DNA of 64,000 nt, from the NCBI GenBank assembly GCA_002071485.1, contig MWFF01000190.1, forward strand, positions 1 through 64,000, in the 5' to 3' direction. The notes below the pieces were generated by a model. That model had not been told where the DNA came from, did not search any database, and worked only from the letters and a program-made list of their open reading frames with translations. Of this stretch, positions 3,329 to 29,899 are shown in pieces (positions within the stretch are counted from its first letter, which is position 1; the number at the start of each line of letters is the position of its first letter). The DNA is from Verrucomicrobia bacterium ADurb.Bin006 (GTDB lineage Bacteria; Verrucomicrobiota; Verrucomicrobiia; Limisphaerales; J093). Both the position numbers and the translations under genes were made by a program.

Positions 3329-4747
3329 TCACTGTCCCCGCGCGAACGCCGCGATCCGATCCGCAACGTCATGGCCGGCGATGATCGAGTCGCCCAGCGA
3401 GATGCCGTTGCGATAATGCCCGGCCAGAAAGATGCCGGGCGCGCGCGCCTCGATCGTTTCCATGAGGGTCTTGAAGCGCCCGTAACCGACCTCGTACTGG
3501 GGGATGGCCTGGCGATAGAGCACGGCGTGTCGAAACGTGGGACTGCCGCGGACACCGAGGATCGTCGCGAGATCGGTGAGTGTGAGATTGAACAGTTCCT
3601 CGATTGGGCGCAGGGCCACATCCGGCGCCCGCACACCGCCGACGTAGGTGGTGAGAGTCACGTGCCCGTCCGGGGCGCGATTCGGGAACAGCGAGGATGA
3701 GAAGAGCGTGCCGAGGATGCGGAACTTCTCGACTTCGGGCACCAACATGCCAAAGCCGTCCAGCGGGTGGTCGACATCCGCGCGGCGGAAGCCGAGCACC
3801 ACGCTTGCGACGGGCGGGTAGTAGACTTCAGTCAAAGGCGCGAGCGTCAGGCCGGCATCGGCATCGAGCGCGATTCGGGCCAGGCAGTGCGCCGGAGCGG
3901 CAAGCAGGACGGCCCGATGCTCGAAGGCGACCGTCGATCCGCCGCTTTGGACCGACACCGTCCAGCCGCGGGGCGTGCGTTTGAGGGCGGTCGCCGTCGT
4001 GTTGAGACGGATGGCTGCGCGCAACCTCGCTTCGAGCGTATCGGTCAACACCTGCAAGCCCTGGTCGAACGAGATTTTCTTCGCTTCCTGCTTCGAGACT
4101 TCGCCGCGTCGCTTGCGCTCGCGCGCCCCGAGAATCTGTCCGACAATGAGAGAGCCATAGCGTTGCTCGACGGCGTGGAGACGGGGAAAGGCATGGATGA
4201 CCGAGAGCCGGCGGGGATCGCCTGCATAGATTCCGGCGATCATCGGATTGATGGCGTAGTCGAGCCATTCCCGACCCAGCCGGCGCAGGACGAACTCGGC
4301 GACATTCTCCTCCTTGTCCGCCGGACCGCGGCGCAGAAACGGCTCGCGCAGCAGGCGCAGTTTCGCGCCAGTCGAGAACAGTTTCGTGCCGAAGAACCTG
4401 ATGGGCGAGGCAGGCAGGCAGACCGGCTCGCCGCCGCGCACCAGATAGCGATTCTCAGCTCCCGGGTCCGAATACCATCGGCGGGGTTCGAGGCCGAGAT
4501 CACGGATCAAGCCGCTGATCTTGGGCGAGGTTTCGAGAATCGAATTGGGGCCGAACTCGGCCAGATACCCGTGCTCGCGCACGGAACGGATGACGCCGCC
4601 GACTCGTTGATCGGCTTCGTAGAGCGTGATCGGCACGCCCGCCTGCATCAGCCGAAAGGCGGCGGTCAGACCGGTGATGCCGCCGCCCACGACAGCAACC
4701 GGCGGCGGCAATTCGGAGGGGTTTCGTGGGACTGAGTCAGCCCGCAT
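3329..4747 (-). CDS. hemG: Protoporphyrinogen oxidase
   Basis: 472 aa FAD-dependent oxidase of the HemY/PgoX type, converting protoporphyrinogen IX (or coproporphyrinogen III in coproporphyrin-pathway organisms) to the porphyrin. The dinucleotide-binding motif VAVVGGGITGLTAAFRL is at about residue 18, followed by YEADQRVGGVIRS and FGPNSILE. The C-terminus carries a second FAD-binding region ending GIFLAGHYRNGISLGDSIIAGHDVA. The ATG used here lies in the arm of a palindromic repeat (4739-4750), so the first few residues are repeat-derived and the biological start could differ slightly. No other heme gene is in the window. Confidence 0.88.
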   Translation of the reverse strand: MRADSVPRNPSELPPPVAVVGGGITGLTAAFRLMQAGVPITLYEADQRVGGVIRSVREHGYLAEFGPNSILETSPKISGLIRDLGLEPRRWYSDPGAENRYLVRGGEPVCLPASPIRFFGTKLFSTGAKLRLLREPFLRRGPADKEENVAEFVLRRLGREWLDYAINPMIAGIYAGDPRRLSVIHAFPRLHAVEQRYGSLIVGQILGARERKRRGEVSKQEAKKISFDQGLQVLTDTLEARLRAAIRLNTTATALKRTPRGWTVSVQSGGSTVAFEHRAVLLAAPAHCLARIALDADAGLTLAPLTEVYYPPVASVVLGFRRADVDHPLDGFGMLVPEVEKFRILGTLFSSSLFPNRAPDGHVTLTTYVGGVRAPDVALRPIEELFNLTLTDLATILGVRGSPTFRHAVLYRQAIPQYEVGYGRFKTLMETIEARAPGIFLAGHYRNGISLGDSIIAGHDVADRIAAFARGQ

Positions 4748-19610: not shown

Positions 19611-20453
19611 ATGCAGACAGGCCTGATCATCTGCCAATGCGCCCACGCCGGGCTCATCGCGCCCGAGACCCTGGGCAGCCTGACCGCAAGTCTCCGGGCT
19701 CACGGGACGCCGTTCGACCTGGTGCCGGATTTGTGCGAGTTGGCGGCGCGCCGGGACCCGCGTCTCGAGGCCGTGTCCCGCGCGCCGCGCCCGACGGTTC
19801 TGGCCTGCCATGAACGCGCGGTCAGGAACCTGTTCCACATGGCCGCTGCACCGCTGGACCCGGAACGGGCTCTGCTGCTCGACGTGCGGACAGGATCGGC
19901 GGCCCAGGCGTTGGGGCGCCTGGGCGTTCCCCAAGCCGCACCCGGCAGTCCCGTGGAAGCCGCACCGGACGCCCCGGCGCCCGCGGGCTGGATTCCGTGG
20001 TTTCCGGTGATCGACGGGGCGCGTTGCACCAATTGCCAGCAATGCCTCGGGTTCTGCCTGTTCGGCGTCTACGATCTCTCGCCTGAAGGCCGCGTCCGGG
20101 TGGCCAGCCCGCAATCCTGCAAGACAAACTGCCCTGCGTGCGCCCGCATCTGCCCCGAAGTGGCGATCATCTTTCCGAAATACCACGAGTCCCCGATCAA
20201 CGGCGGTCCGGTCCTGGACGAAGCGAAGGAAAAGGCGCGCATCCAGGTGGACCTCGATGCGATTCTGGGTACGGACGTCTACGCCAAGCTGGCCGCGCGC
20301 CGCATGGAAGTTGAGCGCAGGCGTCTTCTGCGGCGGGACGTGGAACTGGCCGACGCGGAGCGCCAACGGCACCTGGACCGCGAGAGCCGGGCGGAGTCGG
20401 AGAGTGTAGAGCGGAGGGCATCGTCTCGAGACCGAAGCCAAGGCACATCGTGA
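19611..20453 (+). CDS. Two-cluster [4Fe-4S] ferredoxin-like protein of the isoprenoid cluster
   Basis: 280 aa. The N-terminal 130 residues begin TGLIICQCAHAGLI and are not a recognised domain. The centre has two Fe-S motifs: GARCTNCQQCLGFCLFGVY (C-x2-C-x2-C-x3-C, about residue 142) and SCKTNCPACARICPEVAI (C-x3-C-x2-C-x3-CP, about residue 170), the two-cluster ferredoxin pattern. The last 60 residues are highly charged (many Arg and Glu). The stop overlaps the radical SAM start (GTGA at 20450-20453), so it is a good candidate for the electron donor or accessory protein of that enzyme (inference). Confidence 0.75.
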   Translation: MQTGLIICQCAHAGLIAPETLGSLTASLRAHGTPFDLVPDLCELAARRDPRLEAVSRAPRPTVLACHERAVRNLFHMAAAPLDPERALLLDVRTGSAAQALGRLGVPQAAPGSPVEAAPDAPAPAGWIPWFPVIDGARCTNCQQCLGFCLFGVYDLSPEGRVRVASPQSCKTNCPACARICPEVAIIFPKYHESPINGGPVLDEAKEKARIQVDLDAILGTDVYAKLAARRMEVERRRLLRRDVELADAERQRHLDRESRAESESVERRASSRDRSQGTS

Positions 20454-21643
20454 TTCCCGCGTATTTCAACCGGCTGGCGCGCGAGGTCGACCTTGGTCTG
20501 CTGGCGCGATGCGCATGGACGCTCGGGTTCGGTGGTGTGCGCAGCGTGCGGGCCTTTCAGAAGCGACTGCGGCGAGGCCGGGTGTTTCCGGCGTTCCTGT
20601 TTCTCTCCGTGACCAACCGGTGCAACCTGAAGTGCCAAGGCTGCTGGGTGACGCCGACCACGCCGCCGAGGGAACTCGAGCCGGCGCTCCTCGACCGCAT
20701 CATCGGCCAGGCCAAACGCGAACAATGCCGTTTTTTCGGCATCCTGGGCGGCGAACCGCTGCTTTATCCGCGGCTGTTCGAGATTCTCGGGCGGCACCAG
20801 GACTGCTATTTCCAGGTGTTCACCAACGGAACGACGCTCGATCAGGAGGCGGCGCGCGCGATGCGCCGCCTGGGCAACATCACGCCGTTGATCAGTGTGG
20901 AAGGCCTCGAGGAGGTGAGCGACCAACGCCGGGGCGGCACGCGCGTTTACCGCCGCAGCTTCCAGGGAATCGAGTGCTGCCGCCGCGAGCGACTGCTCAT
21001 CGGAGTCGCCACGAGCATCTGCAAATCGAACTTCCGCGACTTGGTGTCCGAGACCTTCGTCCGGGCGTTGATCGGGTACGGCGTCCATTACCTGTGGTAC
21101 TACATCTACCGGCCCATGGGACCCGACCCGTCGGCGGAACTCTGCCTGTCGGCCGACGACATCGTGGCGCTGCGGCGCTTCATCGTCGACATCCGCCCGC
21201 GGTTCCCTCTGATTGTCGTCGACGCCTACTGGGACGCCGACGGCCGCGCGTTGTGTCCGGCGGCCACGGGCATCAGCCATCACATCGGGCCGCACGGCGA
21301 TCTCGAGCCGTGCCCCCCCGTGCAGTTCGCTCGGGAGAACGCGCGCGACTCGGATGACACGGTGGCGCTCGTCGAGCGGTCGGCTTTTCTGGGTGCCTTT
21401 CGGCGTTTCGCGGCCTCGCAAACCCGCGGGTGCGTGTTGCTCGAGTGCCCGGACGCGTTGCGCGCATGGATGGCGGCCCAGGGGGCCCGCGACACCACGG
21501 GCCGGGGCACGGCTTTGGCGGAACTGGCCGCCATGCAGTGCCGCCCCGGGCATCACATGCCGGGGCGAGAGATTCCCGAGAGTCACTGGGCCTATCGGCT
21601 GGCCAAGAAATACTGGTTTTTTGGATTTGGCGCTTATGGCTGA
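20450..21643 (+). CDS. Radical SAM enzyme of the isoprenoid cluster
   Basis: 397 aa from a GTG overlapping the preceding stop. The radical SAM CxxxCxxC motif is in SVTNRCNLKCQGCWVTPTTP (about residue 58), followed by GILGGEPLLYPRLFEIL (SAM amine-binding GGEP) and VFTNGTTLD. C-terminal cysteines (RALCPAATG, GDLEPCPPVQF, GCVLLECPDA, MQCRPGHHM) could bind an auxiliary cluster or form a SPASM-like region. It generates a 5'-deoxyadenosyl radical; the substrate is unknown. By position between the Fe-S protein and a polyprenyl synthase fusion it may modify an isoprenoid, as HpnH does in hopanoid synthesis, but it is not recognisably HpnH. The downstream gene overlaps by 8 bp. Confidence 0.82.
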   Translation: MIPAYFNRLAREVDLGLLARCAWTLGFGGVRSVRAFQKRLRRGRVFPAFLFLSVTNRCNLKCQGCWVTPTTPPRELEPALLDRIIGQAKREQCRFFGILGGEPLLYPRLFEILGRHQDCYFQVFTNGTTLDQEAARAMRRLGNITPLISVEGLEEVSDQRRGGTRVYRRSFQGIECCRRERLLIGVATSICKSNFRDLVSETFVRALIGYGVHYLWYYIYRPMGPDPSAELCLSADDIVALRRFIVDIRPRFPLIVVDAYWDADGRALCPAATGISHHIGPHGDLEPCPPVQFARENARDSDDTVALVERSAFLGAFRRFAASQTRGCVLLECPDALRAWMAAQGARDTTGRGTALAELAAMQCRPGHHMPGREIPESHWAYRLAKKYWFFGFGAYG

Positions 21644-23315
21644 ACCTTCCCCTCGACCCGCGGCGGTTTCGACGCCGGACAGAAGGCTGGCGCGCCCGGC
21701 GCAGCGTGTGCCCAAGGATAAGGCCATGCGCGAACTCCTGCGGGCCGCGGCGCGCGACCATGTCGCGCGCCACCGGCTCGTCCCACCACTCACGCTCGAA
21801 GAGTTGCGCGCTCATACGCGCGCCGTGATTGAGTCGCTCGGCCAGGACCCGGCCTACAGCGATTTCACCACCGTCCTGATCGGGAATGAAACATGGCGCG
21901 AGACGCTGGCGGGCATTCCATTCGACCGGCGTGTTGTCCTGCTGCCCCAATGCCTGCGCACGCGCGGCGACTGTGCGGCGGAGATGGACGAATTCGGCCT
22001 GCTGTGCGAGCAGTGCGGGCGCTGTCTGATTGGCGAGTTCCAGGCGGAGGCCCAGGGTCTGGGCTGTGTCACACTCGTGGCCGAAGGCACAACCGTCGTC
22101 ACCCGGCTCCTCGAACAGGGCCGGGTCGATGCGGTCATCGGCGTGAGCTGCCTGCACGTGCTCGAACGCGCCTTCCCCCACGCCGCCATGCACGCCATCC
22201 CGGGCATCGCCATCCCGTTGTTCCGCGACGGCTGCGACGCGACCGGCGTGGATGCGGACTGGGTGCGCGAGGCGATCCGGCTCAAGTCCGAAGTCGTGTG
22301 GCCCGGGCGGCTCGACATCGACGCCCTGCGGCGCGAGGTCGAGCGGTGGTTCCAGATAGACGAACTGCAGAGCGTCCTGGGCTGCGCCGGCACGTTCACG
22401 GAACTCAAGGCGCACGAGTGGCTGGCGCAGGCGGGCAAGCGCTGGCGTCCGTTGCTGACCGTCTGCGTCCACAACACACTCGCGGGCCTCGCTGATACCG
22501 ACTCGCTGCCCGACTCCGTGCGCAAAGTGGCCATGGCCACCGAGTGCTTCCACAAGGCTTCCCTCTTGCACGACGACATCGAAGACGGCGACGAGTTCCG
22601 GTATGGCGCCCCCACATTGGCGCGCCAACACGGCATGCCCATCGCGCTGAACCTGGGCGATTATCTGATCGGCGAGGGCTACCGCCTGCTGGCCGACAGC
22701 GGGCTCACGCCGCTCCAACGGGTGCGCGCCTTCAAGATCGCCGCCGAAGGCCATCGCTCTCTCTGTCTGGGACAAGGCGCGGAATTGGACTGGATGCGCT
22801 CAGCCTCGCCGCTGACAACCGCCCAGACGCTCGATTTGTTCCGGTGCAAGACCGCGCCCGCATTCGAGGTCGCGCTGCGTTTGGGAGCCGTGTGCGCGGA
22901 CGCGGACGAGGCGATCGAAGAGCCGCTGCGGCGCTTCAGCGCCGCCCTGGGCATCGCCTACCAAATCCGGGACGACCTCGATGACGCTTTCGATCCTCAG
23001 GCGCCCGGCGACGCCGCGGCCCGGCGCCCGTCGATCCTGGTCTCCATCGCCTGCGAACAGGCGTCTGGCGACGCCCGCGCCCGCCTGCAACTCGCATTCG
23101 GCACCGAGGCGTCCGCCGCCACCCGTCGGGAAATCTTCCGCGACGTCTTCCTCATGTTGCGCACCGAGGACAAAGCCCGCCAACTGCTCGAACACTACCG
23201 CAACGAAGCCCAGCGCTCGCTCAGCCCCCTCCAAAACGCCCATCTCAAAGGCCTGCTGCGACGGCTCGTCGGCCGCCTCCTCGGCCCTCCGCCAACCGCG
23301 CCCGCCAAAGCATGA
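21636..23315 (+). CDS. DUF116-polyprenyl diphosphate synthase fusion
   Basis: 559 aa from ATG 21636, which overlaps the radical SAM stop by 8 bp; the frame is open further upstream but only inside that gene. Residues about 95-210 form a DUF116-like domain with cysteines in LPQCLRTRGDC and LLCEQCGRC (106, 113, 124, 127, 130), suited to metal or Fe-S binding. Residues about 250-555 form a trans-isoprenyl diphosphate synthase with GKRWRP (267-272), first aspartate-rich motif LLHDDIED (DDIED 313-317), KTAPAF (about 405) and second motif RDDLDD (DDLDD 446-450), so it looks catalytically complete. It condenses allylic diphosphate with IPP; product length is unknown. The stop overlaps the next ATG. 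Confidence 0.85.
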   Translation: MAEPSPRPAAVSTPDRRLARPAQRVPKDKAMRELLRAAARDHVARHRLVPPLTLEELRAHTRAVIESLGQDPAYSDFTTVLIGNETWRETLAGIPFDRRVVLLPQCLRTRGDCAAEMDEFGLLCEQCGRCLIGEFQAEAQGLGCVTLVAEGTTVVTRLLEQGRVDAVIGVSCLHVLERAFPHAAMHAIPGIAIPLFRDGCDATGVDADWVREAIRLKSEVVWPGRLDIDALRREVERWFQIDELQSVLGCAGTFTELKAHEWLAQAGKRWRPLLTVCVHNTLAGLADTDSLPDSVRKVAMATECFHKASLLHDDIEDGDEFRYGAPTLARQHGMPIALNLGDYLIGEGYRLLADSGLTPLQRVRAFKIAAEGHRSLCLGQGAELDWMRSASPLTTAQTLDLFRCKTAPAFEVALRLGAVCADADEAIEEPLRRFSAALGIAYQIRDDLDDAFDPQAPGDAAARRPSILVSIACEQASGDARARLQLAFGTEASAATRREIFRDVFLMLRTEDKARQLLEHYRNEAQRSLSPLQNAHLKGLLRRLVGRLLGPPPTAPAKA

Positions 23316-24250
23316 GCCCGGCCGCGCCCGCCCCTCTCGTCCCGAGACTCCGCACCCGGTGCGCCGCCGCGCTCCAGCGCGCCCTGGCCCGCGCCGCCTC
23401 AAGCCTCGACACCCAAGCCCGCTCGGCCCTGAGCGCATTCGTCCGCGCCCAGTTGGCCGCGGATGGGGGATTTCGCGGGCGGACCGCGGATGGCGACCTC
23501 TACTACACGATGTTCGGTCTCGAGTGCGCTCGGGCGCTCGAACTCGATCTGCCGGTCGAACCGATTCGCCGCTTCGTCGAGTCCCGACTCGATGCCCCGT
23601 TGGACTTCGTGCACCTGACCTGCCTGGCGCGCTGCATCGAGAAACTGGCCCCCGGCGGCGCGCCTCCGGCCTGCGGCGCAGGCCTCAGTGAACGGCTTGC
23701 GCGTCATGCATGCGCCGAAGGCGGCTATCATCGACTGCCCGGCCAGCGCAGAGGGAGCGTCTACGAAAGTTTCATCGGCGCGCTGGCGATCGAATCCCTT
23801 GACGAGCCGCTTCCGAATCCAGCCGGCCTGGGTGCCATCCTGGCCAGCCTGGGCAAAGCCTCCGGAGGATTCGTCAACAGTGACGGATGGGGAGCCGCGA
23901 GCACGCCGGTGAGCGCGGCGGCGCTGCTGTTGCTGCATGAGTTGGGGGAACCGGTGCCGCCCAAAAGGGTCGCGTGGCTCCTGGGCCAACAGCGCGCAGG
24001 CGGCGGTTTCGCGGCGGCGGCGCTGGCGCCCGTATCGGACTTGCTCTCGACCGCGACCGCGTTGCACGCCTTGAACCGGATCGGCGCGATCGAGAGCGTC
24101 GCAATCGACTCTTGCCTCGAGTTTGTGACCGGATGCTGGGACGATTCGGGCGGGTTCCACGCGCATGCGCTCGATCCAACACCGGATTGCGAATACGCTT
24201 TCTACGGTCTCCTGGCGCTCGGCAACCTGGTCGCCCCAGGTGAAATGTAG
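23312..24250 (+). CDS. Prenyltransferase/squalene-oxidase repeat protein, no DxDD
   Basis: 312 aa with a single alpha/alpha-barrel-like repeat architecture: ADGGFRGRTADGDLYYTMFG, EGGYHRLPGQRRGSVYESFI, ASGGFVNSDGWGAASTPVSA, RAGGGFAAAALAPVSDLLST and DDSGGFHAHALDPTPDCEYA. It resembles class II cyclase half-domains and geranylgeranyl transferase beta chains. Where the cyclase in the next gene has PDADDT, this protein has PVSDLLS, so the general acid of class II cyclases is missing; zinc-site residues of protein prenyltransferases are not evident either. It may be a non-catalytic partner of the neighbouring cyclase or bind its substrate (inference). It overlaps the synthase gene by 4 bp. Confidence 0.75.
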   Translation: MSPAAPAPLVPRLRTRCAAALQRALARAASSLDTQARSALSAFVRAQLAADGGFRGRTADGDLYYTMFGLECARALELDLPVEPIRRFVESRLDAPLDFVHLTCLARCIEKLAPGGAPPACGAGLSERLARHACAEGGYHRLPGQRRGSVYESFIGALAIESLDEPLPNPAGLGAILASLGKASGGFVNSDGWGAASTPVSAAALLLLHELGEPVPPKRVAWLLGQQRAGGGFAAAALAPVSDLLSTATALHALNRIGAIESVAIDSCLEFVTGCWDDSGGFHAHALDPTPDCEYAFYGLLALGNLVAPGEM

Positions 24251-24264
24251 TCCGCTGCAGCGTC

Positions 24265-26097
24265 ATGTCCCCAGACCCCCTAGATTACCAGAGCATCGCC
24301 GCGGCGGCGCACAACGCGCGGCGCGCCCTTCTGGAACGTCGGACGCCGGACGGTCATTGGACGGGGTATTTATCCAGCAGCGCGCTCTCCACCGCCGTCG
24401 CCACGGTGGCGTTGGCTCTTACGGATGCGAAGGGGCACGACCGCGCTGTCCGCCGCGGCCTGATTTGGCTCGAGGAACATCAAGATGCGGACGGCGGGTG
24501 GGGTGACACCCCATCGAGCCCGGCCAACCTCAGCACGACGCTGCTGAGCTGGGCCGCGTTCGATTGGGCCTCGGACCGCATGGTCCACAGGGGCGCTTGC
24601 GAGCGTGCGGAGCGGTGGCTGGAGAAGCGTCTCGGCAGCCTGGCCCCGGATCAGATCGCCGATCGCGTGCTCGATGCATACGGAAAGGACCGCACATTCT
24701 CGGTGCCGATCCTCACGTTCTGCGCGCTGTGCGGTCGGTTGGGCGATCCGGACCGAGCCTGGACCGCGGTTCCCCAGTTGCCGTTCGAGTTGGCCGCAAT
24801 GCCGCATCGGTTCTTCAAGTGGCTGCGCCTGCCCGTGGTCAGCTACGCAGTGCCTGCGCTCATCGCGATCGGCCTGGCCCGCCACGAGCACACCGGGCAT
24901 GGAGTCCGCCCCTTGCGTCGGCTGCGCGACGCGCTCAAACCACGCGTTCTCGGAATCCTCAGGGAGATTCAGCCCGCCGGCGGCGGATTCCTCGAAGCGA
25001 TCCCCCTGACCGGTTTCGTCGTCTCGGCTCTGGCCGCGTGCGGACTGCACGGCCATCCCGTGGCAATGGCGGGCGCGGAGTTTCTGCTCCGCACGGTGCG
25101 GGCCGACGGCAGTTGGCCGATCGACGTCAATCTGAGCACATGGGTCACCACGTTGAGCATCGGCGCGCTTGGCTGCGGCTCGACGCCACTCGAAGGACTG
25201 AATGCGGGACAGCGGGCTGCCCTCGTGAACTGGTTGCTGGGCCAGCAACATCAGATCGAGCATCCCTTCACCCACGCGGCGCCCGGCGGCTGGGCATGGA
25301 CGAACCTCGCCGGCGGCGTGCCCGATGCTGACGATACGGCGGGCGCCCTGCTGGCGCTGCACGCGCTGGACCGAGACTCGCCCGAGACGCGCGCCGCCGC
25401 CGCTCGCGGCGTCGAGTGGCTGCTCGATCTCCAAAACCGCGACGGCGGCATCCCGACCTTCTGCCGCGGTTGGTCGAATCTGCCGTTCGATCGGAGTTGT
25501 CCGGACATCACAGCCCATGTGCTTGCAGCGTGGGCGACCTGGGAACCGCGCCTCGAGACGCGCTTGCGCGTGCGCCTGAACCGCGCCGCGCGCCGCGCGC
25601 TCGAATCCCTGCTCGAAGCCCAGCGTCCGGACGGGGCCTGGATTCCATTGTGGTTCGGGAACCAACACGAGGCGCGCCTCGAGAATCCAGTGTATGGGAC
25701 GTCACGCGTTCTCTTGGCCATGCGGCGGGTTCGAGGCCGAGTCGGAGTCGGAGTTGAGGCCGCCATCGCGCGTGGCGAGGAATGGCTGCGACGGAGCCAG
25801 CGCGAGGACGGAGGTTGGGGGGGTGGGGGTGAGTCCCCGGCGACCGTCGAGGAAACGGCGCTCGCCTTGCACGCGTTGATGACCGGCGAAAACGCCGGGC
25901 ACCAAACCGTCCGTCGCGGCCTGGCGTGGTTGGCGAGCGCGACACAGGGCGGCACGGTCTTTGCCTCCGCGCCCATCGGGCTGTATTTCGCGGCCTTGTG
26001 GTATGCCGAGGAACTCTATCCGATCATCTTCAGTTGCGGGGCCTTCGGATGCGCCGAGGCGCGCCGCAGCTCGACAGGCGTCTTCCGGTGCTGCTAG
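24265..26097 (+). CDS. Class II terpene cyclase (squalene-hopene cyclase superfamily)
   Basis: 610 aa. The protonating DxDD motif is intact as D354-A355-D356-D357 in [16 protein letters not shown]. It is preceded by [14 protein letters not shown], which matches the squalene-hopene cyclase context. QW-type repeats are visible: [44 protein letters not shown] and [11 protein letters not shown]. The end reads [19 protein letters not shown], also SHC-like. It is expected to cyclise a polyprene by proton attack. At 610 residues it is slightly shorter than typical bacterial SHC. With the polyprenyl synthase fusion upstream, the substrate may be a linear polyprene or polyprenyl diphosphate; no squalene synthase (hpnC/D/E) is present nearby. 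Confidence 0.85.
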
Positions 26098-28671: not shown

Positions 28672-28837
28672 GGTCGCAGGGCGTTGGACACTATGCCTTG
28701 CGCCGGAGCAAGGAGTGCGGCGACAATGAATGTCGAGCACTCGTTTGGCCTCGCCCGATTCCGCGGTTGAAGCGGGACGTGGTTTTGGGGTATATGATCC
28801 GGTGCCTCTGGCGAAAGTGCTCATCAAGGAAACCGTC

Positions 28838-29899
28838 GTGACAATCCTCACTGGCAGCCAGCGGTTCAAGCACCTGTTGGCTGATCCGGTCAAGACCGCG
28901 GCGGCGTTTCGCCAGAGTGGGGACCCTTACGGCCTGGGCCTCAAAGGAGAGCGTCCGGAAAAGATTCTCGTCATCAACTGCGGCTCGTCATCGCTCAAGT
29001 ACGCGTTCTTCGACACCGCGAGCGAAGCCGAGCCGGCGCGCGGTCTGATCGAACGGATTGGGGGGCAAGGCATGCGGCTGGTTCAGCAGGGACCGCGGGG
29101 TGAGGTGGCGCGCGAGCTTCCGCGGGGCGGGTACGAAGAGGCCTTCCAGGCGATGCTGGTCGAACTGACGGCGAAGGAAACGGGCGTGCTCCGGGAACCG
29201 TCGGAGATCACCGTGGTCGGCCATCGCGTCGTTCACGGCGGCGAACGATTCAGCGAAGGGGTGGTCATCGACGACGAAGTGCTGCGTGAAATTGAGACCC
29301 TGAACCCGCTGGCGCCGCTGCACAATCCGGTGAACCTGGCCGGTATTCAGGCGGCGCGGCGGATTTTCCCGGCCGTGCCTCATGTGGCGGTGTTCGACAG
29401 CGGGTTTCATCACACACTGGCATCCTATGCCTACTTGTATGGTCTGCCCTACGAGTACTACGAGAAGATGGGGGTCCGCCGTTACGGATTCCATGGGAGT
29501 TCACACGCCTACGTTTGTCTCCGCGCTGCGCAGCATCTGCAACGGCGGGTGAACGAACTGGAGATCGCCCGCGAGACCTTGCGCGCGTTGAATCGCTCCT
29601 ACCTCACCCGCGTGATCGAGGCGCACCGGAACGACCCGATCCCCATCGAGGTTTCAGCGCATCACATCCACCTGGCCCAGGAGCACGTCGAGGCGCTCTT
29701 CGGCCAGGGCCATCGGCTGACCAGGCAAAGCGACCTTTCTCAGCCCGGGCAGTTTGCCTGCCGGGAACAGCTCGCGATTGTCGGACCGAAAGGGCGTGTC
29801 GAACGCGTGCGCGTGCTGGGTCCCATGCGCAAGGCCACCCAGGTCGAGATTTCGATGACCGAGCAATTCAAACTGGATCGAATTCAGAGCGAGGACTGA
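28838..29899 (+). CDS. Truncated acetate kinase fused to truncated PduL phosphotransacylase
   Basis: 353 aa from GTG 28838, chosen because AAGGA lies 7 nt upstream (28826-28830). After an N-terminal extension of about 43 residues, the first half is an acetate kinase N-lobe: ILVINCGSSSLKYAFFD, GHRVVHGGERFS, PLAPLHNPVNLAGI, FDSGFHHTL and RRYGFHGSSHAYV. It stops matching after RVNELEI (about nt 29567). The whole ATP-binding C-lobe is missing. The chain then continues in frame as PduL-type phosphate acyltransferase: IPIEVSAHHIHLAQEHVEAL, LTRQSDLSQPGQFACRE and VLGPMRKATQVEIS, ending before the second PduL half. Each partner lacks half its fold, so it is probably a deletion remnant of an ackA-pduL gene pair. 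Confidence 0.7.
   Translation: MTILTGSQRFKHLLADPVKTAAAFRQSGDPYGLGLKGERPEKILVINCGSSSLKYAFFDTASEAEPARGLIERIGGQGMRLVQQGPRGEVARELPRGGYEEAFQAMLVELTAKETGVLREPSEITVVGHRVVHGGERFSEGVVIDDEVLREIETLNPLAPLHNPVNLAGIQAARRIFPAVPHVAVFDSGFHHTLASYAYLYGLPYEYYEKMGVRRYGFHGSSHAYVCLRAAQHLQRRVNELEIARETLRALNRSYLTRVIEAHRNDPIPIEVSAHHIHLAQEHVEALFGQGHRLTRQSDLSQPGQFACREQLAIVGPKGRVERVRVLGPMRKATQVEISMTEQFKLDRIQSED

Follow-up and report, generated by a model that had tools for sequence, protein, structure and literature searches.

The question raised by this locus is why a cysteine-rich DUF116 domain should be covalently tied to an enzyme of prenyl chain elongation. The locus lies in a window of 64,000 nucleotides, by which the whole stretch of DNA analyzed is meant (positions 1 to 64,000 of contig MWFF01000190.1, assembly GCA_002071485.1, Verrucomicrobia bacterium ADurb.Bin006). 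A sequence-only reading had proposed that one gene of this window joins DUF116 to a polyprenyl diphosphate synthase. When the HMM search was run, both domains were found far above their cut-offs, and the N-terminal half falls squarely within the DUF116 family. The AlphaFold model of the whole protein is good (pLDDT 83.2, pTM 0.83). The features of the gene are as follows:

21636..23315, + strand: DUF116-polyprenyl synthetase fusion of 559 aa; single open frame with both Pfam domains, kept as a fusion in relatives
21825..22277, + strand: DUF116 domain, residues 64-214 (Pfam PF01976; 106.6 bits, cut-off 25, E 1.1e-30)
within 21825..22277, + strand: seven invariant cysteines, C106, C113, C124, C127, C130, C172, and C200 (61-sequence alignment)
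22419..23114, + strand: polyprenyl synthetase domain, residues 262-493 (Pfam PF00348, polyprenyl_synt; 140.2 bits, cut-off 27, E 8.8e-41; PDB matches)
22572..22586, + strand: first Asp-rich motif, DDIED, residues 313-317, preceded by Ala308 (-5) and Ser309 (-4) (translation; alignment)
22602..22604, + strand: Tyr323, at the position of the second Arg in the RRG of canonical synthases (21 aligned fusions)
22971..22985, + strand: second Asp-rich motif, DDLDD, residues 446-450 (translation; alignment)

A frame artifact is ruled out, since the relatives are conserved and both HMMs match in one frame. Both halves lie in one frame in 33 of 58 relatives from the same order (the window's own genome counted), with identities to the window fusion of up to 88%, and a 34th relative (G029) has a DUF116 half and a synthase half near the ends of two contigs; the halves are not, then, separate genes in most relatives. 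In a scan of genome contigs, 80 loci were kept from Verrucomicrobiota, Planctomycetota, Acidobacteriota, Kiritimatiellota, and Lentisphaerota. In every one of these, the match spans both halves (about 500-550 residues), with 43-52% identity in the best segment. Because the two halves were matched together in 80 of 80 loci and in 33-34 of 58 relatives, the architecture is not due to chance, and since it has been held across phyla, the covalent tie is real and selected. Within the phylum, DUF116 is present in 64 of 289 genomes; the best 30 DUF116 places comprise 21 full fusions, one fusion truncated where its contig ends, and eight stand-alone genes. The fusion is also present in at least one named strain, Chthoniobacter flavus Ellin428.

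The fusion gene is the third of five genes that form an operon at 19611-26097. The other four are:

19611..20453, + strand: four-cysteine domain (C8, C10, C42, C66; no Pfam match) fused to a two-[4Fe-4S]-type ferredoxin domain (Pfam; alignment)
20450..21643, + strand: radical SAM protein with CxxxCxxC at C58, C62, and C65, and with C269, C288, and C328 also invariant (Pfam; alignment)
23312..24250, + strand: single-domain alpha-alpha toroid (Prenyltrans) protein, 312 aa (Pfam)
24265..26097, + strand: class II terpene-cyclase-like protein, DADDT at residues 354-358 (Pfam; alignment)

The reading frames overlap at 20450/20453, 21636/21643, and 23312/23315, and a gap of 14 bp precedes the cyclase gene; from this arrangement, the five-gene operon is judged to be translationally coupled. 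The toroid protein is related to the beta subunits of protein prenyltransferases and to cyclases. The four-cysteine domain and the ferredoxin, which are fused in the window, are encoded by two adjacent genes in most relatives. That four-cysteine domain (19611-19931) spans about 100 aa, with its invariant cysteines in a CxC...C...C pattern, and its profile matched just repetitive designed proteins and chance sequences in the PDB; it may resemble the N-terminus of HdrA. Elsewhere in the window, an ORF at 28730-29899 begins, as read by eye, like an acetate kinase N-terminus and passes straight into a PduL-like end; gene fusion, gene decay, or a join made in assembly could account for it.

The operon recurs well beyond the window. 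Sufficient flanking sequence was available for 64 loci upstream of the fusion and for 78 loci downstream; few queries were used, so the counts are lower bounds. Upstream, a ferredoxin was found in at least 48 of 64 loci, a radical SAM protein in at least 45, and a separate four-cysteine protein in at least 37; downstream, the toroid protein was found in at least 53 of 78 loci and the cyclase in at least 34. The radical SAM gene is 5' of the fusion in most loci, and L047, L053, and L110 are among the loci that have the fusion but no operon partners nearby. The functional link with the neighboring radical SAM and Fe-S proteins, as suggested by the sequence-only reading, is supported by the occurrence of one operon across phyla and by the gene overlap with the fusion in the window. 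Upstream accessory genes, identified by Pfam and NCBIfam, encode a GcvH-like protein (at least 33 of 64 loci), a CobW-type GTPase (at least 31), and a cysteine desulfurase (at least 26). In L085 (3834-7484), L118 (5849-8681), and about 30 other loci, the desulfurase, GcvH-like, and GTPase genes and a gene for a small four-cysteine protein are located 5' of the fusion. The lipoyl-type lysine is invariant in the GcvH-like proteins of the operon, and an LplA-like gene lies beside the accessory module in three acidobacterial loci. In L118, which is acidobacterial, a UbiA-type prenyltransferase gene (3441-4424) is found directly 5' of the radical SAM gene, a hint of an aromatic or lipid acceptor at that locus.

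A maximum-likelihood tree of 78 fusions (midpoint root) splits a small clade from a large one with full support; long branches meet within the small group. The small clade unites the window with relatives from its genus and family, two from its order, one member of Kiritimatiellae, and one of Lentisphaeria, while the large clade holds the set from Verrucomicrobiota, Planctomycetota, and Acidobacteriota. In the small clade the operon is compact: the flanks fetched contained no gene for a cysteine desulfurase, a GcvH-like protein, or a GTPase. One genome of the window's own family (G004) is placed in the large clade, and this family therefore contains both versions of the operon. As judged from gene content, the core of the operon is the four-cysteine/ferredoxin protein, the radical SAM protein, the DUF116-synthase, the toroid protein, and the cyclase; the desulfurase/GcvH/GTPase module is extra to this core.

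The DUF116 half is marked by its cysteines. In an alignment of 61 DUF116 sequences (48 fused, 13 stand-alone), the only invariant columns are seven cysteines and one glycine. The earlier reading had picked out cysteines 106, 113, 124, 127, and 130, and the translation shows these positions to be right, with C172 and C200 to be added; the CxxCxxC-containing pattern of the family is present in the window protein. Since stand-alone DUF116 proteins have the same seven cysteines, the set is a signature of the family rather than of the fusion. It is likely to be a cluster or metal site, and DUF116 is, by this pattern, probably an iron-sulfur domain; alternatively, the seven residues could be persulfide carriers or ligands of some other metal. 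The isolated domain yields a confident alpha/beta model (pLDDT 85.5). A profile search of PDB sequences found no solved relative, and a fold search of the PDB with the model gave low TM-scores and no significant match (best E 0.14); weak Rossmann/flavodoxin-like matches were set aside as falling below significance. Given these two results, the label "reductase" for DUF116 is without structural support. A flavodoxin-like fold for DUF116 has been proposed, with electron transfer as the favored function, and archaeal DUF116 genes have been found to adjoin sulfite/nitrite reductase genes (Makarova et al. 2015; PMC5898192). No biochemistry of DUF116 was found in the literature searched.

A second DUF116 gene in the same genome is stand-alone (G000:C121:7690-8211). 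At this locus (L054, G000:C121:7690-11734), DUF116 abuts a gene for a SPASM radical SAM protein, and next comes one for a geranylgeranyl-reductase-like flavoprotein; the trio recurs in two relatives (L190, L191). This genome thus has two places where DUF116 lies together with radical SAM and isoprenoid-type genes. After the reductase-like gene of L054 comes a convergent gene resembling lipoate-protein ligase. For stand-alone DUF116 genes elsewhere in the phylum, homologues of the operon genes were not found nearby.

The synthase half has the hallmarks of a working enzyme. This C-terminal half has the isoprenoid synthase fold, with PDB TM-scores (normalized by target length) of up to 0.87, and GGPP and longer-chain synthases rank highest among its structural matches. 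Both Asp-rich motifs named in the sequence-only reading are present where expected. Across 21 aligned fusions, GKRxRP (GKRWRP), DDxxD, KT, GQxxE, QxxDD, and H306 are invariant or nearly so, with the last Asp of the second Asp-rich motif kept in 20 of 21. Because the catalytic motifs are so conserved, the synthase half is probably active. Two further cysteines, C304 and C377, are invariant in this half. In characterized synthases, the second Arg of the RRG contacts IPP; in all 21 fusions this site, which follows the first Asp motif, reads R322-Y323, whereas RR is found at the same site in the two best PDB relatives and in both of the other synthases checked from the same genome. A small residue at -5 of the first Asp motif is typical of longer-chain prenyl synthases. 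The 21 fusions have Ala at this position (Ala308/Ser309 at -5/-4 in the window), compared with Ala/Thr in 3oyr and a Tyr at -5 in the archaeal GGPP synthase 1wy0. By this chain-length rule, which was established for other synthases, the product is predicted to be longer than C20. Two related fusions, L051 6515-8326 (G011) and G009:C130, have an insertion near synthase residue 425, just before the second Asp-rich motif.

The last gene of the operon encodes a protein with both squalene-hopene cyclase domains (Pfam). Within its DxDD proton-donor motif, D354, D356, D357, and T358 are invariant in 29 sequences and A355 is nearly so. However, it scores 107.3 bits against the squalene-hopene cyclase equivalog (TIGR01507), far under the cut-off of 431.1. 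Sequence searches of the same genome revealed that another contig carries a further SHC-like gene (about 700 aa), and the operon cyclase is therefore a paralogue, distinct by sequence from the hopanoid enzyme. Squalene is an unlikely substrate for it, one kept in consideration because nearly all relatives (57 of 58) have homologues of squalene synthase. As a discriminator, the presence of squalene synthase proved uninformative, given that 57 of 58 genomes were positive.

These observations can be combined in a model to which we assign a probability of about 0.5: the operon at 19611-26097 would specify a dedicated terpenoid pathway, with the fusion as its entry enzyme and DUF116 as an Fe-S module for electron transfer or reduction. 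In the order of steps that we infer, the C-terminal half, a head-to-tail prenyl diphosphate synthase, would probably make a longer chain (C25 or more), which would be handed to the proton-initiated class II cyclase of the operon and its toroid partner; the radical SAM enzyme would also modify it. The DUF116 half would bind an Fe-S center through its seven cysteines and, supplied with electrons by the operon ferredoxin, would serve in electron transfer or as a reductase; reduction would in this way be physically tethered to the nascent prenyl chain. The end product of the operon is probably a cyclic terpene lipid of a new kind.

Other explanations for the fusion have to be weighed against this model. 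In one, DUF116 would handle sulfur: together with the desulfurase and a lipoylated GcvH-like carrier, it would put sulfur in place of, or onto, the prenyl diphosphate to give a thio-terpenoid. The large-clade operon, with its desulfurase, its GcvH-like protein bearing the lipoyl-type lysine, its CobW-type GTPase, and the LplA-like gene that adjoins it in three acidobacterial loci, speaks for such chemistry, as do the service of a GcvH-like protein, LbpA, in Hdr-based sulfur oxidation (PMC10332631) and the archaeal DUF116 genes beside those for sulfite/nitrite reductase (PMC5898192). However, the operon of the window's clade lacks the desulfurase, GcvH-like, and GTPase genes, the only GcvH-like match in the window's genome is at the level of an ordinary GcvH and not of the operon type, and the cysteine desulfurase may merely supply Fe-S assembly. 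Since the sulfur module is extra to the core, insertion of sulfur is weakened as an explanation, and we consider it quite unlikely. It is also conceivable, if rather doubtful, that DUF116 serves the radical SAM enzyme, in its maturation or in electron docking, in which case the fusion would merely co-localize that enzyme with the synthase product. The place of the radical SAM gene ahead of the fusion in most loci would fit, as would the second DUF116 gene of this genome, with its SPASM radical SAM and geranylgeranyl-reductase-like neighbors kept in two further genomes; yet no radical SAM gene was found in the fetched flank of some fusion loci, and stand-alone DUF116 genes elsewhere in the phylum are not near genes of the operon type.

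The fusion of a cysteine-rich domain to the N-terminus of a synthase could also be regulatory. Multi-cysteine sites are able to sense redox state, and DUF116 might sense redox or Fe-S status and thereby gate the synthase allosterically; redox sensing had been raised in the sequence-only reading, as had delivery or modification of a substrate. The retention of all seven cysteines in stand-alone DUF116 argues instead for an intrinsic chemistry of the domain, and the operon partners are enzymes and electron carriers; a sensor thus seems unlikely. A final possibility, a variant hopanoid cluster in which FPP or GGPP from the synthase would serve the cell at large and squalene would be the substrate of the cyclase, draws on the prevalence of the squalene synthase family (57 of 58 relatives) and on the kinship of the operon cyclase with SHC. 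It is very unlikely, given that the operon has no squalene synthase gene, that the genome has its own SHC-like gene and other polyprenyl synthases, and that the fusion has Ala at -5 where 1wy0 has Tyr. Beyond the electron-transfer model itself, DUF116 might be an Fe-S enzyme of a new class, with prenyl diphosphates as substrates. Reductive removal of the diphosphate from the chain that the fused synthase makes, or its replacement by sulfur, would leave an unusual linear substrate for the cyclase. This is a rather long shot; if true, a cyclic lipid not seen before would be common to at least five bacterial phyla.

How does the window compare with systems already known? The fusion itself is on record: in one sentence, Makarova et al. 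2015 noted that some bacteria have DUF116 and polyprenyl synthetase in one fusion protein, as in Psta_0175 of the planctomycete Pirellula staleyi, and suggested electron transfer (PMC5898192). Consequently, the sequence-only description of the tie as "unexpected" needs toning down; the tie is real but not wholly new. Psta_0175 has the same two-domain architecture as the window protein, which differs in its compact operon and in its place in a small, divergent clade, and the 2015 sentence came without operon, residue, or product analysis. A full-text search for DUF116/COG1852 gave nothing relevant beyond that paper. Stand-alone DUF116 (COG1852/arCOG02078) shares the seven cysteines and the conserved Gly with the fusion; two N-terminal transmembrane segments have been described for the archaeal proteins (PMC5898192), whereas no hydrophobic segment was seen by eye at the N-terminus of the fusion. 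Long-chain and GGPP synthases (PDB 3oyr, 1wy0, 6kd7) have the fold and catalytic motifs of the fusion, which differs from them in its N-terminal DUF116, in Tyr323 for the second Arg of the RRG, and in the invariant C304 and C377. Class II cyclases of the squalene-hopene type share both SHC domains and DxDDT with the neighbor at 24265, but the latter lies far below the SHC cut-off. The sHdr-LbpA/LipS1-LipS2 lipoylation systems (PMC10332631) combine a GcvH-like carrier with Fe-S proteins, as does the accessory module of the relatives; in contrast, the fusion operons have terpenoid enzymes, the window operon lacks the module and with it the gene for a lipoyl carrier, and neither LipS1/S2 nor HdrABC came to light in the loci examined. 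A precedent for a squalene-independent route is the gromomycin pathway, in which a polyprenyl synthase is followed by a protonation-type cyclization, although its gene table contains no DUF116, radical SAM, or ferredoxin, and its product is a guanidine (PMC12105684). Thus, while the fusion has been recorded and the enzyme types are known, their combination and the operon appear to be undescribed, no description of such an operon having been found in the literature searched. Because the operon recurs in Verrucomicrobiota, Planctomycetota, Acidobacteriota, and their relatives, with the fusion present in at least one named strain, its product could be an important uncharacterized lipid. Furthermore, DUF116 is widespread, and its being joined to a prenyl synthase within a conserved operon for terpenes points to a concrete class of substrate among which DUF116 chemistry can be sought.
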